The position numbers were made by a program, and so were the translations under genes. Under the pieces are notes generated by a model, which was not told where the DNA came from, did not search any database, and saw only the letters and a program-made list of their open reading frames with translations. Positions 30,686 through 52,209 of a stretch of 64,000 nt of DNA are shown here, one piece after another (position 1 is the first letter of the stretch; each line of letters opens with the position of its first letter). Source of the stretch: Neptuniibacter caesariensis (GTDB taxonomy: Bacteria > Pseudomonadota > Gammaproteobacteria > Pseudomonadales > Balneatricaceae); the NCBI RefSeq assembly GCF_000153345.1, contig NZ_CH724127.1, positions 411,528 to 475,527 of the forward strand, written 5' to 3'.

Positions 30686-30726
30686 AAGTATATTCCCGCC
30701 CTGATAAGACTAGGGTGGAATTTATA

Positions 30727-32778: not shown

Positions 32779-32794
32779 ACGCTGAATTCAGAGC

Positions 32795-32825
32795 GCCCTG
32801 CCTGCCCCTTCAGGCAGGGCTTTTT
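32795..32825 (+). terminator. Intrinsic terminator-like hairpin after TonB receptor
   Basis: Stem GCCCTGCCTG/CAGGCAGGGC with a CCCCTT loop, followed by TTTTT. It separates the receptor from the PepSY gene 27 nt further on, so it probably attenuates expression within the operon. Confidence 0.85.
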
Positions 32826-32851
32826 GCGTTTATTAGTTTAGGAAAGAAATC

Positions 32852-34570
32852 ATGACAATAGCCACTATAGAAGAGCAGGCCCAGCAACGCAGGGCAAAGA
32901 AAAAAAGTAAGCTCTCAAAGCAATATATCGCTTATCTCATTCATAGCTTTGTTGGACTCAAACTAACGCTATTGATGACGGTCGTACTGTTTACCGGAAC
33001 CATCGCAGTCTTTCAGCAAGAATTGGACTGGTTGATCTATTCAGAGATGCGAGCAGACGTTCAGGATGAAAGGCAGAACCCCGGTGCAATGTTGGATAAG
33101 CTTCAAGCGGCTTACCCTGAGAATGGATTGTTTTTTTATCGTACCAGCGAAAATTACCCAAGCCTGAATTCATATGCTCGCTTTATCGATGATAACGGGG
33201 GCTATCGCCATGCCTGGATAGACCCTTATACCGGCGAAGTGAAAGATGACACCGTTTTACTTTCGATTGGTCAGTTTATCGGTTTTATGCATGCGACGTT
33301 GTTTCTTCCTGCGATAGGAAACAGTCTGGTAAATGCCTTGGGCTTGTTGGTATTGCTGTCACTCATTACGGGGTTAATCGCTTTCCCTAAATTCTGGCGC
33401 TACTTTTTACGTAAACCACGTACAGGTAACACCCGTGTATTTCTGGCGGATCTGCATAAACTGATTGGTTTATGGAGTTTGTGGATTGTCCTGGTTATCG
33501 GAGTGACTGGGAGCTGGTGGTTTTATTTTGATCCTTTCGTAAAACATTTTGGCGTACCGAGTATTGTTGAAGCCCATCCTCGAAAGCCACTGCTTTCCTA
33601 TGCTGATCTGGATCATTTAGGCACCGATCAAGCCCCCAAGATGTTGTCCGCTGAGGAGGTGGTCAATCGGGTGTTGAAGGAGCGTCCTAATCTGCAGATA
33701 AACATTATCAACACACCGGAGCATAATTCTGATCCTTTTGAAATTATAGGTAGCGAAGGCGAGTGGCTGATCAGTGAATGGAAGGGAACCCGAATTATGG
33801 TTCACCCGTTTACAGGAGAGATTATCGACGTATTTCCAGCGGATAAACTCTCTTTAATGCAGCGTACCGATCTGGCGATGACGCCTATTCATTATGGCAC
33901 CTGGGCGGTAGGTGGAGCACCTGATCTTATCGTGAAAACCTTCTATTTCATCGGCGGTTTGGGAATGACCTTCCTGTCGGTGAGTGGTCTGATCATCAGC
34001 TATAAGCGCACACGTCGTGCGGCGAAACGTGCAGCCCGGTTCACGGGTGTCAGGCAGAAACTTATTAAGATATTTGATGTTATTAAACCCTGGGGAGGCC
34101 CGATGGGGGCTTTTAAATATCTCAATGCGTTGCTGATCGCGGGAGTTGTGATGGGTACCGGTTTAGCATTGACCCTTAGCAGCCAGGGTACCAAAGGTAG
34201 TGGTTTTATTTATCAGGAACAGCCACTGGGGCCCTGGAGTGTATCGATGAATGCGGTGGCCGGTCTGCTGGAAAAAGATCTACCACCTATCAGAGCAGGG
34301 GCAAAAACTAATCTCAATGTTCAGATCGATAAAGCCGCATTGGAATCGATTAAGTTTATCTATGCCAAGGTAGGTAAACCCAGGAATCTGCGTGCACCAG
34401 GAACACTGATTCATGGCCCTGTCGGAGCAAAGCATGTACATATGCAGCTGCCAAAAAAGATAAAGGACAATGCGGAACTCTGGGTGACAGCGGTCACCTG
34501 GAAAGGCGATGTATATCAGGCATCCTGGAGCTTAATGCCTAACGGAGAGGAGACGGTAGATGCGCGTTAA
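32852..34570 (+). CDS. PepSY-associated membrane protein (iron-uptake accessory)
   Basis: 572 residues. Cytoplasmic basic start (RRAKKKSKLSK), then a membrane helix (LTLLMTVVLFTGTIAVFQQE) typical of PepSY_TM proteins. A periplasmic PepSY-type domain, two or three more helices (around residues 150-175, 205-225, 365-390), and a last helix near 425-445 with a periplasmic tail. Family members next to TonB receptors are thought to act in ferric-siderophore reduction or iron release at the inner membrane, often with His pairs on the helices (for example LHKLIGLWSLW). The start at 32852 follows AGGAAAGAAATC. It overlaps the next gene by 11 nt. Confidence 0.85.
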   Translation: MTIATIEEQAQQRRAKKKSKLSKQYIAYLIHSFVGLKLTLLMTVVLFTGTIAVFQQELDWLIYSEMRADVQDERQNPGAMLDKLQAAYPENGLFFYRTSENYPSLNSYARFIDDNGGYRHAWIDPYTGEVKDDTVLLSIGQFIGFMHATLFLPAIGNSLVNALGLLVLLSLITGLIAFPKFWRYFLRKPRTGNTRVFLADLHKLIGLWSLWIVLVIGVTGSWWFYFDPFVKHFGVPSIVEAHPRKPLLSYADLDHLGTDQAPKMLSAEEVVNRVLKERPNLQINIINTPEHNSDPFEIIGSEGEWLISEWKGTRIMVHPFTGEIIDVFPADKLSLMQRTDLAMTPIHYGTWAVGGAPDLIVKTFYFIGGLGMTFLSVSGLIISYKRTRRAAKRAARFTGVRQKLIKIFDVIKPWGGPMGAFKYLNALLIAGVVMGTGLALTLSSQGTKGSGFIYQEQPLGPWSVSMNAVAGLLEKDLPPIRAGAKTNLNVQIDKAALESIKFIYAKVGKPRNLRAPGTLIHGPVGAKHVHMQLPKKIKDNAELWVTAVTWKGDVYQASWSLMPNGEETVDAR

Positions 34571-34868
34571 TTTTTGGCTTATTGGTTTGTGTATGGTAGC
34601 AGGGAACCTGTCTGCGCACAGTATTTTTGTAGACTGCAAAGATAGCGCTGAAGGGGTAGCATGTCAGGCAAGTTTTTCTGATGGCTCCAGCGCGGAAAAC
34701 CTCCCTTTTGAGGTGATCTCTTACGAAGATGAGCCTCTTTTAGCAGGTAATACTGACAGTGCGTCAGCGTTTGTTTTTGCCAGACCTCAATCTGAATTTT
34801 ATATCCTGTTGGATGCGGGGCCTGGGCATGTCGTTGAAGTCGATATGGAAGAGATCGAAGCGGAGTAA
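34560..34868 (+). CDS. Small exported protein of the PepSY operon
   Basis: 102 residues with a signal peptide (hydrophobic core, cleavage at NLSAH-S). The mature part is about 82 residues, acidic, with two Cys (VDCKDSAEGVACQASF), likely disulfide-bonded in the periplasm. It overlaps the PepSY gene by 11 nt with its ribosome site (GGAGAGGAG) in that gene. No family was recognised. Inferred role: a soluble periplasmic partner of the PepSY protein or receptor. Confidence 0.68.
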   Translation: MRVNFWLIGLCMVAGNLSAHSIFVDCKDSAEGVACQASFSDGSSAENLPFEVISYEDEPLLAGNTDSASAFVFARPQSEFYILLDAGPGHVVEVDMEEIEAE

Positions 34869-34996: not shown

Positions 34997-35344
34997 TTAA
35001 GCGATAAGAATCTCCACATCATCGCCTTCTAATCGGACTGGCCATACCGGTACAGCGACTTCTTCATCTTCAAAACAAACACCGGAGTTGAGAGAAAAGT
35101 GTTGTTTGTAGATAGGGGAGGCAACCATCGGTTCACCTTTAAGGTCACCGATCAGGCCTCGGGCCAGAACATTAGCACCACTGAAAGGATCATGATTGCC
35201 GATAGCAAAGACTTCATCGGCAAATTCGGGGATGTAAAACAGAGCGACCTGTTGTTCTTCAACTTTTGCTGCTACACCTGAGTGAGGCACAAGATCATCC
35301 TTAGAACAAAGCTTGGTCCAGTTTGCTTTTGGATTAGTAGTCAT
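34997..35344 (-). CDS. nirD: Nitrite reductase small subunit NirD
   Basis: 115 residues, cytoplasmic. Rieske-like fold without the iron-sulfur ligands, as in NirD proteins of NADH-dependent nitrite reductase: WTKLCSKDDLVPHSG at the start, FAIGNHDPFSGANVLARG, then GEPMVASPIYKQHFSLNSG. AGGAG at 8 nt upstream supports the start. It lies 26 nt after nirB in the same transcript. Confidence 0.93.
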   Translation of the reverse strand: MTTNPKANWTKLCSKDDLVPHSGVAAKVEEQQVALFYIPEFADEVFAIGNHDPFSGANVLARGLIGDLKGEPMVASPIYKQHFSLNSGVCFEDEEVAVPVWPVRLEGDDVEILIA

Positions 35345-35370: not shown

Positions 35371-38300
35371 TTAAACCGGGCGAACCTGGTCGCGTTCTAA
35401 AATATGTACAATCTGAGGGTCAACCTGGTCTTCGGTATTTACAAAGGTACGGAAACGTTTCAGCTTCTCTTCATCTTCCAGGGTGGCTTTCCACTCACAC
35501 TCGTAGGTAGATACGATGTGGGCCATCTGAGCTTCCAGCTCTTCACCAATCTCAAGTTTGTCATCGATAACCACCTCTTTCAGGTAGTCCAGACCACCTT
35601 CAAGATTCTCCATCCATACTGAAGTACGCTGCAGACGGTCGGCCGTTTTGATGTAGAACATCAGTACACGGTCGATGTATTTGACCAGCGTTTCATCGTC
35701 CAGATCGGTTGCAAACAGGTCAGCATGGCGAGGTTTCATACCGCCGTTACCGCATACATAAAGGTTCCAGCCATTTTCTGTAGCAATCACGCCGATGTCT
35801 TTGCACTGAGCTTCTGCGCACTCACGTGTACAGCCGGAAACGGCAAATTTGATTTTGTGTGGTGCGCGCAGGCCTTTGTAGCGGTTCTCAAGGTTGATCG
35901 CCATACCGACACTGTCGTTGACACCGAAACGGCACCAGGTGCTACCCACACAAGATTTAACGGTACGCAGGGATTTACCGTAAGCGTGGCCGGTTTCGAA
36001 ACCTGCGTTGACTAACTCTTCCCAGATCAATGGCAGTTCATGCAATTGCGCACCAAACAGGTCAACACGCTGACCGCCGGTGATTTTGGTATACAGGTTA
36101 TATTTCTTGGCAACCTGACCAATCACGATCAGCTTATCGGGAGTGATTTCACCACCCGGCACACGTGGAACGATAGAGTAGGTACCGTTCTTCTGCATGT
36201 TTGCCATAAAGGTATCATTGGTATCCTGAAGGCTTACCAGAGGTTTTTCCTGAATATGCTCGTTCCAGCAAGATGCCAGGATAGATCCGGCGGCTGGCTT
36301 ACAGATCTCGCAACCTAAGCCTTTTCCGTGTTTTTCCAGAAGCTCAGAGAAGCTACGGATACCTTCCACGCGGATGATGTGATAAAGCTCTTCACGGGTA
36401 TAAGCGAAGTGTTCGCAGAGATCAGTATTAACTTCTACACCGCGCTTGGATAATTCATTATCCACAACACTTTTCAGCATGGCGGCACAACCACCGCAGC
36501 CTGAAGCTGCTTTAGTTGCATCTTTTACATCGGCTACGCTGGTGGCACCTTCATCAATGGAGCAGCAGATCTGACCTTTAGTTACGTTCAGGCAGGAACA
36601 GATAGTGGCTTCGTCTGGTAATGCATCCGGACCTAGCGCAGGCGCGGCAGAACCATCCATCGATGGCAGAATAAGCCCTTGTGGCTTTTCAGGAAGATCG
36701 ATGCCGTTCAGAGCGTATTGCAGTAGGGTGTCGTATTTGCTGTTGTCACCCACCAGTACTGCACCTAATAGCTTTTTCTTATCTTCTGAAACAATGATCC
36801 GGTAGTACGTCTGTTCATCTTCATCCAGATAACGGTAGCTGATGCTGCCTGGGGTTTTACCGTGGGCGTCCCCGATAGAGCCAACATCAACACCCAGTAG
36901 TTTCAGTTTGGTACTCATATCCGCACCGGTAAAGGCAGCTTCATCACCCGCAATAGCGGCTACAGCCGTTTTCGCCATGGTGTATCCTGGCGCAACCAGA
37001 CCGAAGATCTGGTTATTCCATAAAGCACATTCTCCAATCGCGTAGATGTTTTCGTCGGATGTCAGGCACTGATCGTTAACCAGGATACCGCCACGTTCGC
37101 CGATCTCCAGCTCACTGCTTCGTGCCAGAGTATCTTGTGGGCGAATACCTGCTGAGAAGAGAATCAGATCAGTTTCAAGGAATGAACCATCGCTGAAGTT
37201 CATGCGATAGGTATGTTCTTCACCGGCAACAATTTCAGTGGTTGCTTTCTCACAGTGAACATCCACGTCCAGTGCTTCGATCTTTTTCTTTAGTAGCTCA
37301 CCGCCGTCTTCATCTAACTGAACAGGCATCAGGCGTGGGGCAAATTCTACAACATGTGATTTGAGACCCAGTGATTTCAGAGCGTTTGCAGCTTCTAAAC
37401 CTAACAAACCGCCACCCACAACAACGCCAACTTTCGCATCTTCAGCACATGCCTGAATCTTATCCAGATCTTCCAGTGTGCGATAAACAAAGCAGGCCTC
37501 ACCATCATTGCCCGGAATGGGGGGGACAAATGGGTATGATCCGGTGGCCATTACAAGCGTATCATAGGAGTATACAGCCTGCTCAGTGATGACCTGCTTT
37601 GCATCGCGATCGATCTGCGTTGCACCTTCACTTAAATGCAGGTGAACGCCGTGTTTCTCATATAGGTTCTCTTCTACCAGACACAGATCTTCATAGCTGG
37701 ATCCGCTGAAATACTCTGAGAGATGTACCCGGTCGTAAGCAGCGCGGGATTCCTCAGCTAAAATATGGATCTCGTAGTCACCGGCAACATTGCTGTTCAC
37801 AAAATTTTCTACAAAGTGGTGACCCACCATGCCATTACCGATAACAACCAACTGGCGTTTATTGGATTCTGTAGTCATAGAAGTTATACCCATGTTTTCT
37901 GTCTGTGTGTCCTGAGCACATAACGGACTGCCAAACAGCAGTTGCTGTCTACAGGCACTCAGATCGTTGTTTTCTTTTAACTGTTCGAAATACCACTGGC
38001 CCTCACGTACATCGCCATACAGCACTGCACCTACCAGTCGGTTTTCTTTTAACCACAATTTGCGGTATTCATTTTTCTTGAAGTCTTGATAGATCAGAGT
38101 GTCACGATCATCAGCGTCGATAAGTTCGCCGCATGAGAACAGTTCGACACCACTGATTTTGAGTTGGGTGGCTACCGGCTCTTCGCGGTAGTTTGATGTC
38201 TCACCAATCAGGCTGGATAAGACGACCTCCGCCTGTTGCCAGATAGGCGCGACTAATCCATATGTGTACTCTTCAAACTGGCAGCACTCACCGAAAGCGT

Positions 38301-39114
38301 AAATATTTAAGTCGCTGGTACGCATCTGTTTGTCGACCAGAATGCCGCGCTTAACTGTTAATCCGGAAGCCTCTGCAAGTTGCGAATTAGGACTTACACC
38401 GATCGCCGTGATAACCAGATCAGCTGGAATAACTTCACCACTGTCCAGTTCAACCGCTTCAACCTGTGTGTCACCCAGAAACGCCTGAGTGTTAGCGTTT
38501 AATCTGAAATCGATGCCACGTTTTTGCAGATTGTTTAGCAGCATCTGTGCGGCGGGTTTATCCAATTGTTTGTTGAGGAGGTAATCGCTTCTGTGTAGCA
38601 GCGTTACATTCATACCCTGAAGCCGAAGACCTTCAGCCGCTTCTAGTCCGAGAAAACCTCCACCAATCACCACTGCATTCTTCTTAGTGGCTGCTACTTG
38701 CTGCATGGTTTCAACATCTTGCAGGGTACGGAAGTTCATGACACCGGGCAGGCTCGAACCTTCAACAGGGACTGCACTCGGATTAGAACCTGTAGCAATG
38801 ATGAGTGAATCGTAGGAAACCCGTAGGTTCTTATGGCTGATGACCTGTTTGAGGCTGGCATCAATATGAACAACAGGGTCTCCGCTATAGAGGGTAACGT
38901 TGTTATTTTTGTACCAGTCGAGGTCCAGAGTCATGACCTGTTCTAATGAGATCTCTTCACCGAGAAGTGGAGAAAGCAGTACTCGGTTATAACTACCGCC
39001 GGGCTCTTCCCCAAACACTGAAATATCAAAACGATCGGCTGCACTGTCAGCGATCAGCTGCAAAAGGCGGCCAGTTGCCATTCCGTTTCCGATGATTACC
39101 AGGCGATGTTTCAT
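35371..39114 (-). CDS. nirB: Nitrite reductase large subunit NirB with additional N-terminal FAD/NAD(P)H reductase module
   Basis: 1247 residues; ordinary NirB is about 850. Residues 1-400 form a complete FAD/NAD(P)H oxidoreductase (LVIIGNGMATGRLL, IATGSNPSAVP, AVVIGGGFLGLEAAEGL). A normal NirB then starts at residue 413 (MTTESNKRQLVVIGNGM) with its own copy of the same motifs (LVMATGSYPFVPP, GVVVGGGLLGLEAANAL). A BFD-type [2Fe-2S] domain follows near residue 838 (ICSCLNVTKGQICC, GCGGC), a second Cys cluster, and finally the sulfite/nitrite reductase core with siroheme-[4Fe-4S] ligands near 1095 (CTRECAEAQC, VCGNGG). The internal ATG at 37878 has no convincing ribosome site, so a continuous fusion is preferred. 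The additional module resembles NasC-type electron-transfer subunits. Nitrite to ammonium, cytoplasmic. Confidence 0.88.
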   Translation of the reverse strand: MKHRLVIIGNGMATGRLLQLIADSAADRFDISVFGEEPGGSYNRVLLSPLLGEEISLEQVMTLDLDWYKNNNVTLYSGDPVVHIDASLKQVISHKNLRVSYDSLIIATGSNPSAVPVEGSSLPGVMNFRTLQDVETMQQVAATKKNAVVIGGGFLGLEAAEGLRLQGMNVTLLHRSDYLLNKQLDKPAAQMLLNNLQKRGIDFRLNANTQAFLGDTQVEAVELDSGEVIPADLVITAIGVSPNSQLAEASGLTVKRGILVDKQMRTSDLNIYAFGECCQFEEYTYGLVAPIWQQAEVVLSSLIGETSNYREEPVATQLKISGVELFSCGELIDADDRDTLIYQDFKKNEYRKLWLKENRLVGAVLYGDVREGQWYFEQLKENNDLSACRQQLLFGSPLCAQDTQTENMGITSMTTESNKRQLVVIGNGMVGHHFVENFVNSNVAGDYEIHILAEESRAAYDRVHLSEYFSGSSYEDLCLVEENLYEKHGVHLHLSEGATQIDRDAKQVITEQAVYSYDTLVMATGSYPFVPPIPGNDGEACFVYRTLEDLDKIQACAEDAKVGVVVGGGLLGLEAANALKSLGLKSHVVEFAPRLMPVQLDEDGGELLKKKIEALDVDVHCEKATTEIVAGEEHTYRMNFSDGSFLETDLILFSAGIRPQDTLARSSELEIGERGGILVNDQCLTSDENIYAIGECALWNNQIFGLVAPGYTMAKTAVAAIAGDEAAFTGADMSTKLKLLGVDVGSIGDAHGKTPGSISYRYLDEDEQTYYRIIVSEDKKKLLGAVLVGDNSKYDTLLQYALNGIDLPEKPQGLILPSMDGSAAPALGPDALPDEATICSCLNVTKGQICCSIDEGATSVADVKDATKAASGCGGCAAMLKSVVDNELSKRGVEVNTDLCEHFAYTREELYHIIRVEGIRSFSELLEKHGKGLGCEICKPAAGSILASCWNEHIQEKPLVSLQDTNDTFMANMQKNGTYSIVPRVPGGEITPDKLIVIGQVAKKYNLYTKITGGQRVDLFGAQLHELPLIWEELVNAGFETGHAYGKSLRTVKSCVGSTWCRFGVNDSVGMAINLENRYKGLRAPHKIKFAVSGCTRECAEAQCKDIGVIATENGWNLYVCGNGGMKPRHADLFATDLDDETLVKYIDRVLMFYIKTADRLQRTSVWMENLEGGLDYLKEVVIDDKLEIGEELEAQMAHIVSTYECEWKATLEDEEKLKRFRTFVNTEDQVDPQIVHILERDQVRPV

Positions 39115-39402: not shown

Positions 39403-41124
39403 TTATTGGTCCAGATAAAATTGCACTAAGTTGATCATCAACAGAATCAAGGCAATCACTTTCCAGACAAGTAGCGGGTTTCTTTCCAGGTACGGCTGAT
39501 GCTGAACCATTGATTCCAGGCTTTGATTTGGATGGGTGATATCCTGAAGAAACTCAGAGAATGCGTCGTAGCGAAACCGCGGGTTTGGTTGCAATGCTTT
39601 TTTTAGCGCACCTTCAACCCAAAGCGGAAGATCCCTGCGATGGTGGAGGGCAGGGGTATAGTCCATTTCCGCATAGCTTTTTAAGCTGATCTGATTGGCT
39701 GACATCTCTTTGTAAGGTAGCTTGCCGCAGATCATCTCATAGACAATTGTGGCCAGAGAGAACAGATCGGATTTGAAATTCCCTTTTTCTCCCAGCAGAT
39801 ATTCAGGCGCCACATAGTTTACTGAACCCTGTGGGATCGACTTATCCAATGGCGAGTTCATCTCTTCGATTCCGGCTATTTTTACAGTACCGAAATCGAG
39901 AATCTTTACCCGTCCATCCTGATTGATCATGATATTTTCGGGTTTCAGATCCTGATGAACCATATCAGCTCGCTGGAATGCCCTTAGGCCCCTAATAATT
40001 TGTTTTGTCAGGTCTCTGACCTCGTCGAGAGGCGGGTTGGGATTATCATTCATCCACTCTCTGAGGTTCATCCCCTGAACATGCTCCCCAAGGTAGTAGA
40101 GAAAACGTTTATCAGGTTTACCTGGGTAAGTTTTCATTACGTTAGGGTGATCGATACGTTGCCCTACCCATTCTTCACGAATAAAACCATCCAGGTAGAG
40201 TGTGTCATCTGAGAAGTTAGTAGAAGGGGCTTTCAGTACGTATTTGTCTGCATTTTCCTGATCTTTTACCAGATACATATGGCTACGGGTGCCACTGAAA
40301 ATCACGTCTAGGACTTCATAACCATCAATTTTGTTCCCGGCTTTCATTACCGGAGGGATCGGTAGCTGTATGAGTCGAGTATGACTCTCATCCAGGGTTT
40401 CTTTTGGCAACTGGTCTACGCAAGTAATCAGTGCAGTGAGGTTGTCATCACTACCGTTTTTTAGGGCCAGATCGATCAGCTTTTTGGCCGTTGATTCCGC
40501 ATCTTCAAAGCCGGTGGAAATGATGCTTTTCAGATCCTTAGGACTGATGAAGTCATGTACACCGTCCGTTGTCATAATGACAAGGTCACCTTCACTTAAT
40601 GCGCGTGTGCTGTAATCAACTTCAAGGTGACGATCGCCGCCGAGTGCACGAGCAAGGTAATTCTTACCCCCGGACTTACGTACATGGTCACTGGTAAGTT
40701 GTTCAAGCTCGCCATCCTGAAACAAGTAAACTCGGGAATCACCTACATGGAACAGATGCAGTGTGTTGGACTTGATAATAGTGGCGGAGAAGGTGCATAG
40801 CATACTGTCCTTTTCCCGGCTGCTCTGGCTGTTTTCTTTATGCAGCCAGCTGTTCAGGGCGGTCATAACCCGGGAAACTGAATTGCGAACGCTCCAGCTG
40901 TGTGGTGTGCTGAAGTAATCTTGCATAAAACTTGTGACGCTGGTTTGGCTTGCGATATGCGAATCTTCACAGCTACTCACACCGTCTGCGATAACAGCAG
41001 CGCCGCCTTTAAATTCAAGATCGGTTGTGGTCGGTAAATGAGCTGCAAATGCGTCCTGATTCAGATCCTTTATGCCAGCGCTGGAAAGACCGCCAAAGCG
41101 TAAAGACAGGTTTTTTGAGCTCAT
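39403..41124 (-). CDS. Bifunctional PP2C phosphatase / Ser-Thr kinase with C-terminal anchor
   Basis: 573 residues. The N-terminal ~240 residues are a PP2C-type phosphatase (VIADGVSSCED, FHVGDSRVYL, MTTDGVHDF, GSDDNLTALI). Residues ~265-525 are a Hanks-type kinase with the catalytic loop HQDLKPENIM, DFGTV and APEYLLG. The end is a single membrane helix (near 553-570), so the enzyme faces the cytoplasm. The gene lies between the nitrate transporter and nirB; the same kinase-in-nitrate-cluster arrangement is known from Pseudomonas. Substrates are unknown. Expression is probably from upstream readthrough, with the hairpin at 41155-41181 in between. Confidence 0.9.
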   Translation of the reverse strand: MSSKNLSLRFGGLSSAGIKDLNQDAFAAHLPTTTDLEFKGGAAVIADGVSSCEDSHIASQTSVTSFMQDYFSTPHSWSVRNSVSRVMTALNSWLHKENSQSSREKDSMLCTFSATIIKSNTLHLFHVGDSRVYLFQDGELEQLTSDHVRKSGGKNYLARALGGDRHLEVDYSTRALSEGDLVIMTTDGVHDFISPKDLKSIISTGFEDAESTAKKLIDLALKNGSDDNLTALITCVDQLPKETLDESHTRLIQLPIPPVMKAGNKIDGYEVLDVIFSGTRSHMYLVKDQENADKYVLKAPSTNFSDDTLYLDGFIREEWVGQRIDHPNVMKTYPGKPDKRFLYYLGEHVQGMNLREWMNDNPNPPLDEVRDLTKQIIRGLRAFQRADMVHQDLKPENIMINQDGRVKILDFGTVKIAGIEEMNSPLDKSIPQGSVNYVAPEYLLGEKGNFKSDLFSLATIVYEMICGKLPYKEMSANQISLKSYAEMDYTPALHHRRDLPLWVEGALKKALQPNPRFRYDAFSEFLQDITHPNQSLESMVQHQPYLERNPLLVWKVIALILLMINLVQFYLDQ

Positions 41125-41227: not shown

Positions 41228-42697
41228 TTAGTTAACTTTGATAAGTTCAACAGTACCATCTTCATTCACTTCAGCCATATGACCTTTTGGCTCTTCAAGC
41301 ATAAGCAATGCAACAAAACCTAGTACCGCTGTTGCAGCAATAACGGTAAAGAAAGTTGAATAGTCGACCATAGAGAGAACCGTCAAATAGAATACAGCTC
41401 CAACATTACCGTAGGCGCCTGTCATACCAGCGATCTGACCTGTTAGGCGACGTTTGATCAGTGGCACTACCGCAAAAACTGCACCTTCACCTGCCTGGAC
41501 AAAGAAAGAGCATGCCATCGCAGCAGCCACCGCGAGGAATAGAGGCCATGAACTATCAATCATTGACATAGTCGCATAACCCGCCGCTAAACCAGCTGTA
41601 AGGATCAGTAGCGTTTTCTTACGGCCAAAACGGTCACTGATCCAACCACCCCCAGGTCGGGACATCAGGTTCATAAATGCATAGGCTGATGCGAGTAACC
41701 CTGCGTAGACCATATCCAGCTCGAATACTTCAGAGAAGAACAAGGGCAACATAGAGACAACTGCGAGTTCCGAACCGAATGTAGCGAAATAAAGTACGTT
41801 TAATACCGCAACCTGCTTAAATTTATACTGCTCCACTTCGGGTACGGGTTTAACGAAAATCTCCTTGTTAACGTTATATGCGCTGTAGCAATCGTAGATC
41901 AGGATGAAGGCCAGGCTGACATAGATCGCAATGGCCGCAGACTCTGAAAGAATAGAAACGCCCGCTGGTGACAGCTTCCAGGTAAGCAGGGAAAGTGCTG
42001 CGTACATCGGAATCTTCATGACCAGCATGAAATAGAAATCGCCTTTGCTGGTTACTTCCATCCCGCCGATCTTCTTAGGCTTAAAGTAGGTTGAACCCTT
42101 TGGTGTATCAGAAACATTTTTGTACCAGATGTAACTGAAGATCAGGCTCATTAAACCGGTCAGGCCAACCGCATAGCGCCAGCCATCTTCGCCACCGAAG
42201 ATCAGTGCCAGCGTCGGAAGTGACATAGCTGCCGCTGCCGAACCAAAGTTGCCCCAGCCGCCATAGATGCCTTCAGCAGTCCCTAGTTCATTAGCAGGAA
42301 ACCACTCACTCACCATACGGATACCCACGACAAAGCCGGCGCCAATGAAACCAAGTAAGAAGCGAGAGATAGCGGCCTGGGCGAAATCTGTGGAAAGCGC
42401 GAAAGCAAAGCAAGGGATGCTGGCGATAAATAGCAGTGATGCGTAAGTGATCCTTGGTCCATATTTATCGGTCAGCATGCCGATGATGATACGGGCTGGA
42501 ATGGTCAGAGCGACGTTCAGGATCAAAAGTGTTTTTACTTCAGCCTTAGTTAGCCCCAGTGACTCTGCAATTGCACCAAGCAGTGGAGCATGGTTGAACC
42601 AAACAAAAAAGGTGATAAAGAAAGCGATCCAGCTCATATGCAGGATCTTCATCTTCCCGGTGAACGAGAAAATGTTAAGTTTGTCGCTTCCGCTCAT
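41228..42697 (-). CDS. NarK/NasA-type nitrate transporter (MFS)
   Basis: 489 residues, twelve predicted membrane helices. Nitrate/nitrite porter family by the N-terminal [17 protein letters not shown], then [37 protein letters not shown] and [16 protein letters not shown]. The loop between helices 6 and 7 is longer than in E. coli NarK. It catalyses nitrate uptake (or nitrate/nitrite exchange) at the inner membrane. The gene follows a leader terminator like those of nirB and nrtA, so NasT-type control is likely. Confidence 0.92.
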
Positions 42698-43008: not shown

Positions 43009-43890
43009 TTATGCAGCTTGATCCTCGCTATCTGCTTTATCTTCTTGCAGGTCTTGTGCCACATTTTTTTCTTCAGTTTTTGCAGTGCTGTTTTCATCGG
43101 GTTTACGCTGCTTCTCATAGAGGAAGGTCAGCACTTCATGGCGGTAGTGGTTGTACTTTGGATCATCAGCCAGCGCGATACGGTCACGGGGCCGTGGCAG
43201 GTCGATATCCAGAATTTCACCTACGGTTGCTGCCGGACCATTCGTCATCATCACGATACGGTCAGATAGCAGGACGGCTTCATCCACGTCATGGGTAATC
43301 ATGATGACAGTGTTGTTCAGGTCTTTTTGGATCTCCATCAGGGAATCCTGCAAGTGGGCACGGGTCAATGCGTCCAGTGCACCAAAAGGTTCGTCCATCA
43401 GTAATACTGTAGGTTCCATCGCAAGTGCTCGGGCGATACCGACACGTTGCTTCATACCACCGGAAATTTCATCAGGGCGTTTATGCATAGCATGGTCCAT
43501 ATGCACCAAGGAGAGATTGTGCTCGATCCACTCTTTTACTTCGGCCTTGCTCTTTTGCTTGCCAAAAACCTGTTTTACGGCGAGTTCCACATTTTCATAA
43601 GCGGTTAACCAGGGAAGCAATGAGTGGTTCTGAAAGACAACAGCACGTTCAGGTCCGGGCTCGTTGACCTCTTTCCCATCCAGCAAGCAACCACCTTTTG
43701 TTGCCTGGTAAAGGCCGGCCACAATGTTTAGTACTGTTGATTTACCGCAACCGGAATGACCAATCAGAGAAACGAATTCGCCTTTATTAATGGTCAGGTT
43801 TACATTTTTCAGTGCTTTAAATGGGCCCGTTGGTGTCGGGAAATCGATATCGACTTTTGTCAGTTCTAAGTGCTTTGGAGGCTGAGTCAT
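43009..43890 (-). CDS. nrtC: Nitrate ABC transporter ATP-binding protein NrtC/NrtD-like
   Basis: 293 residues. Walker A GHSGCGKST, Q-loop FQNHSLLPWL, signature SGGMKQRVGIARAL, Walker B VLLMDEPFGALD, H-loop MITHDVDEAV. It is a NrtD/TauB-type ATPase of the nitrate/sulfonate family, without the substrate-binding tail of cyanobacterial NrtC. The last ~30 residues form an acidic Glu/Asp-rich tail. Third gene of nrtABC; start supported by AGGAG. Energises nitrate import at the inner membrane. Confidence 0.9.
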   Translation of the reverse strand: MTQPPKHLELTKVDIDFPTPTGPFKALKNVNLTINKGEFVSLIGHSGCGKSTVLNIVAGLYQATKGGCLLDGKEVNEPGPERAVVFQNHSLLPWLTAYENVELAVKQVFGKQKSKAEVKEWIEHNLSLVHMDHAMHKRPDEISGGMKQRVGIARALAMEPTVLLMDEPFGALDALTRAHLQDSLMEIQKDLNNTVIMITHDVDEAVLLSDRIVMMTNGPAATVGEILDIDLPRPRDRIALADDPKYNHYRHEVLTFLYEKQRKPDENSTAKTEEKNVAQDLQEDKADSEDQAA

Positions 43891-46366: not shown

Positions 46367-46384
46367 GGATTGTTCCTCCAAATC

Positions 46385-46728: not shown

Positions 46729-47730
46729 ATGATTAATAAAATATTACGAACGTTGTCTGCCATTGGAATAGTGGCTTATTGTATGGCTGTGAATGCTGAT
46801 AACAGGATTATGTTAATCCATAGTTACCATCAGGAGTTGCAGTGGGTTGAGGATGTGACGCGCGGGATACGTGAAGAGTTGCTCGAGGGGCATGCGCTTA
46901 GTATCCATTATATGGACACCAAACGAATTCCTGTTGATATGTTTCAGCAAGCGGCTGATGAAGCCTTTCAGGAATTCAAAAAGCAAAAGCCTGATCTGGT
47001 CATTATCTGTGATGACAACGCGTTGAAATTATTGGGTCTAAAGATTTCGGCCACTACTCCGCTGGTTTTCTGTGGCATTAATGGAGATATCAGGGCTGAC
47101 TATCCCTGGGTAGTAAAAGAGGCGCGTGTGACTGGCGTGATGGAGCGTCCACTCATAAAACGTACGATTGCTGAGTTTATTAAACAAACGGGCCATCATT
47201 ACAAAAAAGCGTTAATTCTGTTGGGGGACAGTCCGACCGCCCGGGCATTTCATCTCTATGATCTGGGCAATCAAGCTCGGTTGAGTGTTAATCGCACGAT
47301 AAGCGCTGATGTGCTTAGAATATCTGACATGGAATCCTGGAAGAACGCTATTCGCGACAGCGGTGCCAATGGTTACGATCTGTTATTAGTGGCAGGCTTC
47401 GGTGCTATGAAAGATAGCGAGGGGCGATATGTCAGTCTGGATGAGTTGAGTAATTGGGTAGGTAAGCATAGCCCTGTTCCTGCTTTGACGGTTCATAAAC
47501 AAGCCATTGCAAAGGATAAAATAATGGCGGGTATGATTGTCAGCGGTACCATCATGGGGCATGACGTTGCCAGACTTGCAAACCTTATGCTGAACACCCC
47601 GGTGAATTCGGGGAAAATATCTATAGTGACCCAGAATCTTGGGCGGTATATTTTTAGTCGGTCTGCCTTGAGGGCCAAAGGTATTGAACCCCCGGTTGCG
47701 GGCAGCGATCAGGTACAAATTATTCCCTAA
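46729..47730 (+). CDS. ABC-type substrate-binding protein of the ABC_sub_bind family
   Basis: 333 residues from ATG 46729 (the in-frame ATG at 46696 would place a polar stretch before the signal peptide). Signal peptide to about VNADN. The mature protein has the two-domain pattern seen in TrpX-like or YtfQ-unrelated ABC_sub_bind proteins: IMLIHSYHQELQWVEDV, KPDLVIICDDNALKLL, TTPLVFCGINGD. No permease or ATPase is adjacent. It converges with nasS with a 4-nt overlap. Such proteins are often sensor inputs rather than transporters. The ligand is unknown. Confidence 0.78.
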   Translation: MINKILRTLSAIGIVAYCMAVNADNRIMLIHSYHQELQWVEDVTRGIREELLEGHALSIHYMDTKRIPVDMFQQAADEAFQEFKKQKPDLVIICDDNALKLLGLKISATTPLVFCGINGDIRADYPWVVKEARVTGVMERPLIKRTIAEFIKQTGHHYKKALILLGDSPTARAFHLYDLGNQARLSVNRTISADVLRISDMESWKNAIRDSGANGYDLLLVAGFGAMKDSEGRYVSLDELSNWVGKHSPVPALTVHKQAIAKDKIMAGMIVSGTIMGHDVARLANLMLNTPVNSGKISIVTQNLGRYIFSRSALRAKGIEPPVAGSDQVQIIP

Positions 47731-48752
47731 TTTGTACACCATTCCCTATACAGATCTTCACGGAACACTTGTTTACTGATCGAGAAGAGATCGATCTGTT
47801 CGTCAGAAAGTTGCCCGCACGCTTGCATTTGCTCTAATAAAAACTGACCTTGTTGCTGACCTGGCAGATTGACCTCATTCCCAAAGAAGCGCTGCTCCAT
47901 TGAGTAGGGTGGTGTGAACCCTTTTATAAGGTTGGCAGACCTGTCCAGGTAAGGAGGGAGAGATAATAACTCGATAAGCTCGTCTTTATTTTCGCTCTGA
48001 GATAACCATTCACATGCTTCGTATATAGCGCGAACCAGGGCCTGGTGAGTCAGCGGGTTTTCATCAGCCCATTGAGCCGTTACACCCAGCACTTTTTCAA
48101 TCTGTGTTCCCCATATTCTATAGCCAGTGGTCAGCAAGCCACCACTTTGGTTGATCAGAGCAAGACTGTTCCAAGGCTCGCCAACGCAATACCCATCAAT
48201 CAGACCGTTCGACAGATTTTCGAGCATTTTTGTTGGAGGAATTGCGACAAGTTCCACATCATCTGCAAAGCTGATGTTATGTTTTTTGAGCCAGTAGCGG
48301 AGTTGATAGTGATGGTTTGAGTATGGATAGACGGTAGCGATCACCGGTTTACGCCCCATACTCTTAATGAGGGCTTTGAACTGAGAACCCACCGTCTCAT
48401 CGTTATCCCAGTCAGTGACATGTTGAGATAATGCTAAAAACAGCTCCTTGCCCAAAGTAATGGCCGTGCCGTTTTGGCTTAAAGCTAGGGCCGTTACCAT
48501 TGGGGTCTTATTTCCGTTCAGGCCTAATGTTGCAGCGAGTGGCATCGGTGCAAGCATTTGCGCACCATCCAGAATACCAAAGCTGACCTTATCGCGGATG
48601 GTTGCCCAGGAAGATTCTTTGCTGAGCACAACGCTCAACCCATATTTGTTAAAGAAGCCTTTTTCTCTGGCAACAACCAGTGGAGCGCAGTCGAGGAGGG
48701 CAACAAAGCCCAGAGTCAGCTTGGTTTTTTCTAGTTCGGTTGGCGCTGTCAT
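47727..48752 (-). CDS. nasS: Nitrate sensor NasS
   Basis: 341 residues, no signal peptide. Related to the NrtA fold ([48 protein letters not shown]), but soluble and cytoplasmic. In NasST systems the apo-form sequesters NasT, and nitrate or nitrite binding releases it. It lies downstream of nasT on the same strand (18 nt gap), reversing the common nasS-nasT order. Acts on the ANTAR protein encoded next to it. Confidence 0.9.
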   Translation of the reverse strand: MTAPTELEKTKLTLGFVALLDCAPLVVAREKGFFNKYGLSVVLSKESSWATIRDKVSFGILDGAQMLAPMPLAATLGLNGNKTPMVTALALSQNGTAITLGKELFLALSQHVTDWDNDETVGSQFKALIKSMGRKPVIATVYPYSNHHYQLRYWLKKHNISFADDVELVAIPPTKMLENLSNGLIDGYCVGEPWNSLALINQSGGLLTTGYRIWGTQIEKVLGVTAQWADENPLTHQALVRAIYEACEWLSQSENKDELIELLSLPPYLDRSANLIKGFTPPYSMEQRFFGNEVNLPGQQQGQFLLEQMQACGQLSDEQIDLFSISKQVFREDLYREWCTN

Positions 48753-48770: not shown

Positions 48771-49370
48771 CTACTTCTTAAGCAGGCCATTGGTGGCATT
48801 AAGTACCTCAATGACGCTGGCCGCGACATCAGGTAGCTTTTGCCCCCTGTCCATCGCAATCTTTCTCAAGGTCTGATAGGCCTGGTTTTCATCGCAGCCT
48901 TGATGCTTCATTAACATCCCTTTGGCTTTTTCAATGACTTTACGGTCGGCGAGTTGGGTGCGGGCTTCTTCTAGTTCAGTTCTTATCAGGCTGTGCGCGT
49001 CGAAGTGCGCGATTGCCGTATCCATGATGGCTTTCACCCGATCTGCTTGTAAGCCGTCAGCGATATATGCACTGACACCTGCGTTGATAGCAGCAGCCAT
49101 GGTCCGGCGGTCATTCTGTTGTTCAGCAAAAAAGACGATGGGTCTGGGGTTGTTCTGGCTCATCGTTGCCATACTTTCCAGCGTATCCCTGTCTGGGGAA
49201 TCCATATCTATAATGACAATGTCCGGGTGGAAGCTCTCCACATGGTGATTAAGGTCGGAAGTATCTGATAGATGGCAGACAACATGGTGCCCAAGTTGAT
49301 GCAGGGCGTCTTTAAGCGCCTGAACGCGATCAGCTTCCTCATCTATTATCAGCACATTTAGGTGTTTCAT
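48771..49370 (-). CDS. nasT: ANTAR-domain antiterminator NasT
   Basis: 199 residues. The N-terminal ~120 residues are a receiver-like domain (VLIIDEEADR, IVIIDMDSPD); the last ~70 are an ANTAR domain (KVIEKAKGMLMKHQGCDENQAYQTLRK, an RNA-binding helical motif). The protein binds paired small hairpins in leader mRNA and prevents terminators forming. Its likely targets are the leaders of nirB, the MFS transporter, nrtA and perhaps nasA. It diverges from nasA and precedes nasS. Confidence 0.94.
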   Translation of the reverse strand: MKHLNVLIIDEEADRVQALKDALHQLGHHVVCHLSDTSDLNHHVESFHPDIVIIDMDSPDRDTLESMATMSQNNPRPIVFFAEQQNDRRTMAAAINAGVSAYIADGLQADRVKAIMDTAIAHFDAHSLIRTELEEARTQLADRKVIEKAKGMLMKHQGCDENQAYQTLRKIAMDRGQKLPDVAASVIEVLNATNGLLKK

Positions 49371-49541: not shown

Positions 49542-49581
49542 AATTCCAACGTTAGCTGTAAGGTTTTTAATGGAGGTTAGG

Positions 49582-52209
49582 ATGCACAAGTTGACAACCT
49601 GTCCGTACTGCGGTGTGGGCTGTGGCGTTGATGCTGAGCTGGGAGAGGGCGTTGTTGCAAAGGTTCAGGGAGATAAAGAACACCCGTCAAATTATGGACG
49701 TTTGTGTGTAAAAGGTTCCTCCCTACATGAGGTGCTTGGTACTAATGGCAGGTTGTTATCGCCTCTGGTCGATGGACAAAGGGTTAGTTGGGCTGATGCA
49801 CTGGATCGGGTCGCTGAAGAATTGCTGTGCACTATTAAAGAGCATGGTCCGGATTCGGTAGCATTCTATCTATCGGGTCAGCTACTGACCGAAGACTATT
49901 ATGTTGCTAACAAACTCATTAAAGGGTTTATTGGAACCGCCAATGTAGATACCAATTCCCGCCTGTGTATGTCATCTGCTGTTGCCGGGTATAAAAGAGC
50001 ATTTGGCAGCGATACTGTGCCTTGTTGCTATGATGATTTGGAGCAAACTGACCTGTTGGTTCTTGTGGGTAGTAATACTGCCTGGAACCATCCTATTCTG
50101 TTTCAGCGCATGCAGGCGGCGAAACGAAAGAATCCTGATTTGAAGGTTGTCGTTGTTGACCCACGTCGCACTGCTACTTGTGATCTGGCTGATCTTCATC
50201 TTGCGATAAAACCGGGCACGGATAGTGAGTTATTCTCCGGTTTGCTGAGCTATATATCGAGCGAAGATCTAGTTAACCGAGCATATGTCACGCAATTTAC
50301 AGAAGGTTTTAATGAGGCTATTAGCGCGGCTTCCGAGCAGTTCAATAGTCGGGCTGAACTTGCGGAGTACTGTGGAATTGATCTGGCGACATTGGAACAG
50401 TTTTATCAGTTGTTTAGTGCAACTGACAAAGTTATATCTTTCTATTCACAGGGGGTAAACCAATCCTCCAGTGGAACAGATAACTCCAATGCCATTATCA
50501 ACTGTCATCTTGCCACAGGGCGAATTGGGTACCCCGGCGCTGGACCTTTCTCCATTACTGGACAGCCAAATGCGATGGGCGGTCGTGAAGTCGGTGGGCT
50601 GGCAAACCAGTTAGCTGCACATATGGACTTTAGCTCTGCAGAAGCGATCGATCGTGTGGGCAGGTTTTGGGATGCTCCTAACATTGCCCAGGCGAATGGT
50701 CTGACTGCTGTGAATCTGTTCCAGGCGGTAGAAAAAGGAGAGATAAAAGCAGTTTGGGTAATGGGCACAAACCCTGCAGTTAGCTTACCTAATACCAACC
50801 AGGTCTCTAGGGCTTTGGAAGAGTGTCCGTTGGTTGTTGTTTCGGATTGCATGGCCAGTACAGAAACTATCCGCTACGCCGATATCTGCCTGCCTGCTAC
50901 CGGGTGGAGTGAAAAGAATGGCACGGTAACCAATGCGGAAAGGCGAATTTCCAGACAAAGAGGGTTATTGCCACCTAGCGGGGAGGCAAAGCATGACTGG
51001 TGGATCATATCTGAAGTGGCTAAACGCATGGGTTACGCTGAAGCTTTTGATTATCAGCACCCTTATCAGATTTTTGCAGAACATGCAGAACTATCAGGTT
51101 TCGAAAACGACGGTAAGCGCGATTTTGATATCAGTCTTTTCTCCGATATTACGGAAACAGCCTATGATGCGTTAAAACCTGTGCAGTGGCCGGTGACCAA
51201 TGATGCACCATACGGTACCGCGCGTATGTTTGCCGATGGTCGATTTTATACACCTTCCGGAAAGGCCCGATTTATTCCTGTTACAGCCAACAAACCGAAA
51301 CAGCTACCTACGCCAGAACTTCCTTATGTGATGAATACAGGCCGGTTGAGGGATCAGTGGCATACGATGGCGATGACCGGCCGAACCAGCCGCTTATTCT
51401 CCCATCGCGATGAGCCATTTGTTGAGTTGTGTCAGGCAGATGCGCAGAAAGAAGGCATTGTAGAAGGTGAATTGGTTAAACTAAGCCACCCTCAGGGCGA
51501 ATACATTGGCCGTGCGCGAATTACCGATGATCAACGACCAGGTGAGTTATTTGTGCCAATGCACTGGAATGGTGAATTCAGTGCAAAAGCAAGAATGGGC
51601 GTCCTGTTAGAGCCAGTGACAGACCCAATTTCAGGACAGCCTGAATCGAAACATGGGCGGGTTGCTATTGAAGCGCTCAACCCTAAATGGCAGGGATGGT
51701 TTATCTGCCAGGCTGAGATGAAACCAGATTTCCCCGTGACCTACTGGACGCGGGTTCCGAAAAAGGAAACCGAATTCTACTATCTGGCAGATACCGCTGA
51801 ACTGGATGATCCACTTCAGTGGTGCCGTGATAAGTTTGGTGAAGTGGATATCTGGTTAGAAGATAAAGCTGAACAGAGTTTTCGAGCCGCAGGCTTGCAG
51901 GGTGAGAAGCTACAATGGGCATTCTTTATTATGCCTTATGGGCAGATACCCAGTACCGGTTGGCTGGAAGAGATGTTTGCTGAAACGGAACTTTCGCTGG
52001 ATCAGCGACGTTTCCTACTGAGTGTTACAGGATGTGAGATAGAAGATCCGGGCAGTATTATTTGTAGCTGTTACCAGGTAGGTAGCAATGCAATTGAGGA
52101 TGCGATCAGCCAGGGGTGCTGCTCGGCTGAAGCATTAGGGGAGAAATTGAAATGCGGAACTAACTGCGGTTCCTGTATCCCGGAGCTAAATGCATTGATA
52201 GCAAAGTAA
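49582..52209 (+). CDS. nasA: Assimilatory nitrate reductase catalytic subunit NasA
   Basis: 875 residues from ATG 49582; GGAGGTTAGG lies immediately upstream and an in-frame ATG at 49570 would overlap this site. N-terminal [4Fe-4S] motif CPYCGVGCG...CVKG, then the molybdopterin oxidoreductase fold (LVLVGSNTAWNHPILFQRM, VVDPRRTATCDLADLHL, GQPNAMGGREVGGLA), and a C-terminal BFD-like [2Fe-2S] domain (ICSCYQVG, CGTNCGSC). Reduces nitrate to nitrite with two electrons from a reductase, here perhaps the additional module of the NirB fusion. Cytoplasmic. Confidence 0.95.
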   Translation: MHKLTTCPYCGVGCGVDAELGEGVVAKVQGDKEHPSNYGRLCVKGSSLHEVLGTNGRLLSPLVDGQRVSWADALDRVAEELLCTIKEHGPDSVAFYLSGQLLTEDYYVANKLIKGFIGTANVDTNSRLCMSSAVAGYKRAFGSDTVPCCYDDLEQTDLLVLVGSNTAWNHPILFQRMQAAKRKNPDLKVVVVDPRRTATCDLADLHLAIKPGTDSELFSGLLSYISSEDLVNRAYVTQFTEGFNEAISAASEQFNSRAELAEYCGIDLATLEQFYQLFSATDKVISFYSQGVNQSSSGTDNSNAIINCHLATGRIGYPGAGPFSITGQPNAMGGREVGGLANQLAAHMDFSSAEAIDRVGRFWDAPNIAQANGLTAVNLFQAVEKGEIKAVWVMGTNPAVSLPNTNQVSRALEECPLVVVSDCMASTETIRYADICLPATGWSEKNGTVTNAERRISRQRGLLPPSGEAKHDWWIISEVAKRMGYAEAFDYQHPYQIFAEHAELSGFENDGKRDFDISLFSDITETAYDALKPVQWPVTNDAPYGTARMFADGRFYTPSGKARFIPVTANKPKQLPTPELPYVMNTGRLRDQWHTMAMTGRTSRLFSHRDEPFVELCQADAQKEGIVEGELVKLSHPQGEYIGRARITDDQRPGELFVPMHWNGEFSAKARMGVLLEPVTDPISGQPESKHGRVAIEALNPKWQGWFICQAEMKPDFPVTYWTRVPKKETEFYYLADTAELDDPLQWCRDKFGEVDIWLEDKAEQSFRAAGLQGEKLQWAFFIMPYGQIPSTGWLEEMFAETELSLDQRRFLLSVTGCEIEDPGSIICSCYQVGSNAIEDAISQGCCSAEALGEKLKCGTNCGSCIPELNALIAK

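Follow-up and report, generated by a model that had tools for sequence, protein, structure and literature searches.

A NasC-type reductase module joined in frame to the nitrite reductase NirB in Neptuniibacter caesariensis

The window, a 64,000-nucleotide stretch of the Neptuniibacter caesariensis genome, contains on its minus strand a single uninterrupted open reading frame of 1247 codons (35371-39114, ATG start), in which two FAD/NAD(P)H reductase modules are followed by one NirB core. The ORF lies among nas genes, and the features of the locus are as follows (the roles of the three ABC transporter genes come from reading their sequences):

34997..35344, minus strand: NirD, Rieske-type small subunit (Rieske_2, E = 1.2e-37)
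35374..36624, minus strand: NirB core, residues 831-1247, with BFD [2Fe-2S] (837-885), NIR_SIR_ferr (974-1035) and NIR_SIR (1046-1182)
36625..37878, minus strand: module 2, about residues 413-830, NirB's own FAD/NADH reductase, with Glu-Phe in the cofactor loop
37876..37878, minus strand: ATG of residue 413, a possible internal start of free NirB
37879..37929, minus strand: junction, residues 396-412, from the usual end of a stand-alone module 1 to the NirB start; coding constraint, in-frame indels only, low synonymous variation
37915..39114, minus strand: module 1, residues 1-400, NasC-type FAD/NAD(P)H reductase with a Rubredoxin_C-type C-terminal domain and no BFD
39403..41124, minus strand: PP2C phosphatase/Ser-Thr kinase (Pfam and annotation), which occurs in other nas clusters too
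41228-42697, minus strand: nitrate uptake, MFS transporter (Pfam)
43009-43890, minus strand: nitrate uptake, ABC ATPase
43941-44927, minus strand: nitrate uptake, ABC permease
44987-46381, minus strand: nitrate uptake, ABC substrate-binding protein
47727..48752, minus strand: NMT1_2-family protein (Pfam), probably NasS-like, a name suggested by its position next to the ANTAR gene
48771..49370, minus strand: response regulator with an ANTAR RNA-binding domain (Pfam), probably NasT-like
49570..52209, plus strand: NasA, assimilatory nitrate reductase, 879 residues, with a C-terminal BFD [2Fe-2S] (830-878); named from its domains and neighbourhood; its scores with the NCBIfam nitrate-reductase models fall short of their cut-off

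There were no Rfam matches at the gathering threshold between 34000 and 53000. The nasA gene is separate, on the opposite strand, 10 kb from the ORF and outside the nirB operon, which contradicts a preliminary description of this DNA in which both steps of nitrate assimilation were combined in one protein.

That description's account of two reductase modules ahead of a single nitrite-reductase core is, on the other hand, borne out. Pfam assigns two stretches each to Pyr_redox_2 and Rubredoxin_C, and one each to Fer2_BFD, NIR_SIR_ferr and NIR_SIR. Modules 1 and 2 align over 377 columns with 31.6% identity (E = 5e-51), far beyond chance; by this comparison they are homologous, and their separation is ancient. 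The best match of the NCBIfam NirB model NF011565 covers residues 419-1246, and the whole protein scores 1538.7 bits (cut-off 883) with this model and 1479.5 (cut-off 578.35) with TIGR02374, although the NCBIfam and Pfam models match both module types alike and do not tell them apart. The protein therefore has the domain set of NirB, a score above the NirB cut-off and an adjoining nirD partner; it departs from the usual, though not strictly defining, form, which has one flavin module in about 850 residues, so that its domain content marks it as NirB plus an extra domain rather than plain NirB. An annotation or assembly artefact was rejected, since the same frame occurs in nine other genomes of the genus and in other lineages: the fused arrangement is not unique to this locus.

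Where does the added module come from? Internal tandem duplication of the NirB flavin module, leaving a redundant copy, would account for the homology of the two modules, but the tree rules it out and leaves it practically no credence: the modules lie on opposite sides of a long branch with full support (SH-aLRT 100), module 1 being placed among stand-alone genes. Specifically, module 1 belongs to a 14-row clade (SH-aLRT 97) comprising the genus and three stand-alone genes, and this clade is nested in a larger group that mixes stand-alone and fused copies. Module 1 thereby falls among stand-alone reductases that adjoin nasA or nirB, and it occurs together with a BFD-bearing NasA, both as expected of a NasC-type reductase; being fused to NirB, it is not the separate polypeptide that such a reductase would otherwise be. 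We use NasC in what we take to be the Klebsiella sense, the electron-transfer partner of the assimilatory nitrate reductase. The available part of PMC12021255 also uses the name for that partner. We found no curated NCBIfam model for the NasC-type family.

Stand-alone genes of the module 1 type lie directly upstream of nirB in many relatives (e.g., G012, G017, G018, G027, G031, G032, G035), between nirD and nasA in Burkholderiales-type loci, and directly before nasA with no nirB in the stretch covered (e.g., L067, L131). The same module type also occurs joined directly to a siroheme core, mostly as proteins of 810-850 residues (54 distinct modules), and this form makes up most of the module-1-type matches listed for the class sample. 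The ORF does not have this Paracoccus-type NasB layout, since module 2, of the other type, stands between module 1 and the core. The N. caesariensis assembly (98% complete) encodes only one protein of the fused kind and no separate nasC, the six further matches being weak (24-31% identity); the earlier remark that the window has no separate nasC thus holds genome-wide.

Module 1 conserves the glycine motifs for FAD and NAD(P), lacks the redox cysteine (a Val aligns with the Cys of 6ruz) and has, according to Pfam, no [2Fe-2S] domain of its own. Its AlphaFold2 model (mean pLDDT 93.7) finds putidaredoxin reductase, TodA and BphA4 among its nearest folds, and the predicted fold is of the ferredoxin reductase type. 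We consider it probable that a nasC-type gene, encoding the electron partner of NasA, has been fused in frame with the adjacent nirB to give the ORF, such that module 1 serves NasA and module 2 serves nitrite reduction. In the mechanism that we propose, the FAD of module 1 would accept a hydride from NAD(P)H, and module 1 would pass single electrons, through a docking face like that of ferredoxin reductases, to the [2Fe-2S] cluster in the C-terminal BFD domain of NasA, a separate protein and the proposed acceptor; from there the electrons would travel through the [4Fe-4S] cluster to the molybdenum site, where nitrate is reduced. Module 2 would pass electrons from NADH through the NirB BFD cluster to the siroheme which, with NirD, would convert nitrite to ammonium. 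The tether could hold NasA's donor close to the enzyme that clears toxic nitrite, and in constant proportion to it.

The route from module 1 to the BFD cluster of NasA had been put forward in the preliminary description; the company that module 1 keeps, its ferredoxin-reductase fold, and its want of a [2Fe-2S] centre where NasA has a C-terminal one all speak for it, and one set of relatives speaks against it. Among 41 relatives with a module-2-type NirB, a BFD-type NasA is present in 31/31 with module 1 versus 5/10 without (p = 3e-4; 21/21 versus 5/10, p = 0.0015, once G001-G010 are removed), and in the class sample (28 genomes with a module-2-type NirB) NasA is present in 15/16 versus 5/12 (p = 0.004), all of these p-values being optimistic because the genomes are related and NasA matches were sorted by hand. 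Module-2-type NirB is itself associated with NasA (25/28, p = 3e-7, likewise optimistic). Conversely, five relatives (G011, G020, G033, G034, G047) have NirB, NirD and NasA and gave no module-1-type match within the limits of the search (the C-terminus of NasA failed to score in G034), so NasA is not strictly dependent on module 1; judging from these gene contents, NirBD or another donor is apparently able to serve it. In the class sample, G094, G195, G199, G311 and G407 likewise combine NasA and NirB without module 1. G229 has a module-1-type match, among those listed, and no NasA at threshold. Class-wide, a NasA match is missing from 21 of the 160 genomes that have a module-1-type match and, as the core-fused form is also common, the module type alone is no proof of service to nitrate reductase.

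The five relatives with NasA and NirBD but no module 1 speak for a different role, in which module 1 gives nitrite reduction a second point of electron entry, feeding the BFD cluster of the NirB core directly or via module 2, perhaps adding NADPH, while NasA is supplied by NirBD or from elsewhere. The 54 modules fused straight to a siroheme core indicate that this type can feed such a core, and the available text of PMC5424462 has NasB/NasG of P. denitrificans serving both reductases. Nevertheless, we judge this role unlikely, given the 31/31 co-occurrence in relatives with this NirB type and the stand-alone copies that directly precede nasA with no nirB in the stretch covered. Furthermore, according to the part of PMC4724949 available, flp mutants of Bradyrhizobium japonicum do not grow on nitrate and grow normally on nitrite, though the nitrite reductase there is of the ferredoxin-dependent NirA type; as a possible functional analogue, Flp is also a precedent for module 1 serving NasA.

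The history of the fusion bears on the favoured reading, that of a NasA donor joined to NirB. Reading of other loci showed this fusion in G471, G496, G201, G206, Klebsiella and Pantoea; in the last two it is flanked by the genes for the nitrate ABC transporter and by that for nitrate reductase. The congeners of G471 (G468, G469, G470 and G472) keep the two genes separate. The trees require five changes between fused and separate states and reject a single origin; they come from quick searches with SH-aLRT support only, contain partial rows (L141, together with L033, L151 and L156, whose modules had been split by the domain search and were entered as one piece each), omit the near-copies L014 and L042, and the test for a single clade followed inspection of the first tree. 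The fusion is thus a recurrent joining of neighbouring nasC-type and nirB genes, not a new kind of enzyme, and the tethering, with or without a cofactor split, would have been assembled about five times. Such repetition is an independent genetic argument that the NasC-type reductase and the machinery of nitrite reduction work together. In G015, G463 and G428, the module-1 gene and nirB lie in one frame, parted by one in-frame stop codon. A stop-tolerant listing gave candidate fusions in G463 (1299 residues), G428 (1321) and G473 (1368), which proved on reading to be separate ORFs. A 1309-residue frame listed for G317 looks like the G206-type fusion.

The ATG at 37878, which had been noted as a candidate start of the second module, does correspond to residue 413. 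It raises the question of whether the fused frame carries little functional weight, with most NirB translated from an initiation codon inside the ORF (residue 408 or 413) and module 1 acting as if separate. We think this more improbable still than a second entry for nitrite reduction. Judged by eye, the sequence upstream of 37878 shows nothing resembling a Shine-Dalgarno sequence, unlike that of nirD; the junction is free of stops and frameshifts in the 10 genomes of the genus read in one piece; its pN of 0.15 against a pS of 0.40 points to constraint at the level of the protein; and the fusion arose more than once. An eleventh genome, G009, does have a TAG in the junction, but this assembly is 88% complete and 6% contaminated, and contig ends cut its ORF exactly at that site. 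Low synonymous variation could mark a nucleotide signal: the 17-codon windows starting at 396, 398, 400 and 402 rank 24, 17, 11 and 23 of 1230, a dip that is suggestive only, given the overlap of the windows and the presence of two deeper dips inside module 2 (starts around 495-501 and 524-534). Finally, exactly 957 residues remain from Met399 of the Klebsiella fusion, the length of the classical K. oxytoca NasB, which would also fit an internal start.

The cofactor loops of the two modules differ. Module 2 has Glu-Phe, whereas in module 1 the NADH-type Glu is missing and His-Arg is present, which makes the earlier term 'NADH-dependent' doubtful for module 1 and yields a direct prediction on NADH versus NADPH use; module 1 may prefer NADPH, as far as one loop can indicate. 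Arg follows His in 13/15 fused modules (near-copies included, G471 and G496 left out), in 21/44 stand-alone modules and in 0/54 of the core-fused form. Since the latter probably includes the NADH-using P. denitrificans NasB, loss of the Glu alone leaves NADH use possible. G201 (His-Gln) and G206 (His-Ala) are exceptions, so the His-Arg loop is not common to all fusions; the Klebsiella and Pantoea fusion keeps it. It is conceivable, if somewhat doubtful, that in the genus and in the Klebsiella/Pantoea form the protein is a dual-cofactor hub, in which NADPH would supply NasA through module 1 and NADH would supply nitrite reduction through module 2, so that the nitrate step is physically coupled to nitrite removal. 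Two separate redox pools would then supply nitrate assimilation.

The electron donor of NasA can be hard to find in genomes, and the fusion-bearing genomes show that it can hide in a gene annotated 'nirB'. This is shown for the fusions read here; for Alteromonas, a curation, in the part of PMC12021255 available, found no nasC homologue and proposed a ferredoxin route. A search of titles and abstract openings, whose results did not include the classical Klebsiella nas papers, found no paper describing the fusion of module 1 to NirB, and the terms 'fusion' and 'fused' are absent from the available text of a 2026 NirBD review (PMC12830290).

Among known systems, the closest in layout are the proteins annotated 'nirB' of Klebsiella pneumoniae (WP_004180385.1, 1355 residues) and Pantoea dispersa (1357 residues), which, like the ORF, have module 1, module 2 and a siroheme core in one frame, with nitrate ABC transporter and nitrate reductase genes nearby and no separate nasC in the stretch covered. 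Unlike the ORF, they add NirD at the C-terminus; they also occupy a separate place on the trees, their module 1 being just 41-43% identical to that of the ORF. Erwinia rhapontici has, among the matches listed, a similar single-piece, full-length match. The stand-alone reductases of eight relatives (G012, G015, G017, G018, G022, G032, G035, G054) are of the same family (42-48% identity to module 1) and lie upstream of nirB in the same direction, but as separate polypeptides. E. coli-type NirB (NF011565, model length 847) has no module 1 and corresponds to the remainder of the ORF. The NasB type of P. denitrificans has a related flavin module, but one instead of two; other Rhodobacterales loci lead us to infer that it is a module-1-type module fused to a siroheme core, and NasB/NasG passes electrons from NADH to nitrate reductase, according to the text available of PMC5424462, which also speaks for the proposed service of module 1 to NasA. 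Flp of B. japonicum (blr2808), as presented in the available part of PMC4724949, is an FAD/NAD(P)H reductase encoded by a separate gene beside nitrate reductase; likened to module 1 by function and gene place, and not by sequence comparison, it is a possible functional analogue.

Translation of the minus strand at 35371–39114 gives a stop-free open reading frame of 1247 residues. Pfam places in it a pair of pyridine-nucleotide reductase modules, both ending in a Rubredoxin_C-type domain, followed in order by single BFD, NIR_SIR_ferr and NIR_SIR domains; the NCBIfam NirB assignment covers residues 419–1246. Module 1 (residues 1–400, a NasC-type reductase) and module 2 (NirB's own flavin module, ~413–830) are homologous (31.6% identity, 377 columns, E = 5e-51). 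The domains and this alignment bear out the preliminary description of two reductase modules with one nitrite-reductase core. No second protein of this kind occurs in the genome, where a search returned six other matches, all weak (24–31% identity). The setting is as follows:

35371–39114, minus strand: fused ORF
Downstream of the fused ORF: NirD gene
Upstream of the fused ORF: nitrate uptake genes
49570–52209, strand opposite to the fused ORF: NasA, 879 aa, with C-terminal BFD domain
Before nasA, transcribed divergently: an ANTAR-regulator gene and a gene for an NMT1-type protein (NasT/NasS-like)

A PP2C phosphatase fused to a Ser-Thr kinase (39403–41124) recurs in nas clusters, also at gene loci L134 and L039. 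Translation of 30715–34868 reveals a TonB-type receptor, then a membrane protein, then a small exported-looking protein: probably iron-uptake genes.

Our main reading is that module 1 would deliver electrons to NasA, and module 2 would serve nitrite reduction. It follows from co-occurrence with NasA, structural likeness, [2Fe-2S] distribution and precedent. Module 1 was modelled with high confidence (mean pLDDT 93.7), and its closest structural likeness is to ferredoxin reductases, some of them solved in complex with redox partners (3lb8, 4emj); by Pfam, a [2Fe-2S] domain is absent from module 1 and present in NasA. The Flp reductase of B. japonicum adjoins nitrate reductase and is required for growth on nitrate but not on nitrite (PMC4724949); in P. 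denitrificans, NasB and NasG carry NADH electrons to nitrate reductase (PMC5424462).

As for co-occurrence, among 41 relatives with module-2-type NirB, the BFD-type NasA accompanies module 1 in 31/31 genomes vs 5/10 without it (p = 3e-4), or 21/21 vs 5/10 (p = 0.0015) when the congeneric genomes G001–G010 are left out; the genomes compared here and below are not independent, and NasA matches in all these sets were sorted by hand. In the class sample, BFD-type NasA is found in 15 of 16 genomes with module 1 vs 5 of 12 without (p = 0.004; 28 genomes with module-2-type NirB), and across all 369 class genomes NasA is found in 139/160 with a module-1-type match vs 22/209 without (E up to 1e-70; six weaker matches dropped as presumed NirB self-matches). 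Module-2-type NirB is likewise associated with NasA (25/28 class genomes). Counter-examples are G020, G033, G011, G034 and G047, which have NirB, NirD and NasA (its C-terminus scored in four of the five) and gave no module-1-type match; loci L132–L136 of these genomes are nas clusters without a NasC-type reductase.

The cofactor of module 1 may be NADPH, as suggested by its lack of a Glu and by loop comparison with BphA4 and 1xhc. In module 2 and NirB this Glu stands at the end of strand 2 of the NAD(P) domain (60 of 63 modules; Gln in three); members of the module-1 family carry His, Gln or Asn there. Arg comes next in 13/15 fused and 21/44 stand-alone module-1-type modules; G201 (His-Gln) and G206 (His-Ala) are the fused exceptions, so not every fusion shares the Arg. 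At this place BphA4, to which module 2 was matched through a shared E-x-x-P-R-L-M pattern, has E175-T176-Q177, with residue numbers confirmed, and PDB entry titles include E175/T176R/Q177G mutants of BphA4, reportedly designed to change its preference to NADPH. The negative charge of Glu175 was proposed to favour NAD over NADP (PMC7397466). Among PDB sequences the best match is 1xhc, which is reported to use NADPH and has LIHRG at the cofactor loop. We keep NADPH use conditional because the core-fused form (a module-1-type reductase joined straight to a siroheme core) has His then Leu, Ile or Val in 54/54, and NasB of P. denitrificans, which uses NADH, probably belongs to this form.

Regarding origin, a quick tree of 91 modules (every fused and separate module-1 row kept; core-fused and NirB rows thinned) separates module-1-type from module-2-type sequences by a long branch with full support. 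Module 1 of the window belongs to a clade of 14 rows (SH-aLRT 97), namely the genus plus three stand-alone genes, nested in a 30-row clade (SH-aLRT 95) in which 16 copies are separate and 14 fused. The stand-alone gene lies immediately upstream of nirB in relatives such as G012, G017, G018, G027, G031, G032 and G035; in G015, G463 and G428 both genes lie in one frame, with a single in-frame stop codon between them. The order is nirB, nirD, nasC-type, nasA in the Burkholderiaceae and Oxalobacteraceae loci examined. The core-fused form, mostly 810–850 residues, is common in the alphaproteobacterial loci examined and in the class sample, among the matches listed. Module-1-type reductases have three settings, stand-alone, siroheme-core-joined and whole-NirB-joined (L019–L036, L043–L131, L037, L038): a natural series for the study of electron delivery.

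The fusion or its pieces are present in 11/11 genus genomes, ten of which (the window's own, G001–G008 and G010) hold module 1 and NirB in one stop-free frame, the G008 contig ending at residue 1225. In G009 (assembly 88% complete, 6% contamination) two contig ends break the gene at the junction, where the module-1 contig carries a TAG (L041, L042): either a true re-split or an assembly fault. Over the 17 junction codons (residues 396–412; 37879–37929, minus strand), pN is 0.15 vs pS 0.40 and indels are in-frame only (ten genus genomes). By eye, no Shine-Dalgarno-like sequence precedes the internal ATG (residue 413, 37878); nirD has AGGAGA. Few stretches of the gene vary less at synonymous sites than the junction (windows from 396, 398, 400 and 402 rank 24, 17, 11 and 23 of 1230; nine genomes), a pattern compatible with an embedded signal; two further dips lie in windows starting at ~495–501 and 524–534. 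With pN 0.203 vs 0.071 and 0.067, module 1 evolves about three times as fast as the remainder of the protein.

Outside the genus, one-frame fusions of 1257 and 1364 aa occur in G471 and G496 of the same family, making 12 of 116 family genomes (G009 unclear), and fusions of 1285 and 1312 aa in G201 and G206 of the class, among the matches listed from 369 genomes. With G009 left out, five changes of state, whether gains or losses of fusion, are needed on each of two trees, one of NirB (63 rows, 15 of them fused) and one of module 1 (53 rows, likewise 15 fused). This count is open to effects of long branches, gene transfer and a one-clade test run after an earlier tree was seen. That test rejected a single clade of all fused rows, G009 included (p-AU 9e-12 and 6e-55, respectively). 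On the NirB tree, G471 falls in with the genus of the window and adds no separate origin.

The fusion is a real, recurrent variant of known parts: these parts, their neighbourhood and the fusion's probable function are already known, and public annotation holds it as nirB. A search by title and abstract opening, covering mainly open-access literature, gave no description of it. NasC, as a name for the electron-transfer reductase, is Klebsiella usage. PMC12021255 also uses it in this sense, and alphaproteobacterial usage gives the name to the catalytic nitrate reductase (PMC4724949). Klebsiella and Pantoea have fusion ORFs of 1355 and 1357 aa, annotated 'nirB', which differ in also carrying NirD. 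Met399 of the Klebsiella fusion leaves exactly 957 residues, which we take to be the length of classical K. oxytoca NasB; the definition of that protein may therefore start at an internal Met within the same fused frame.
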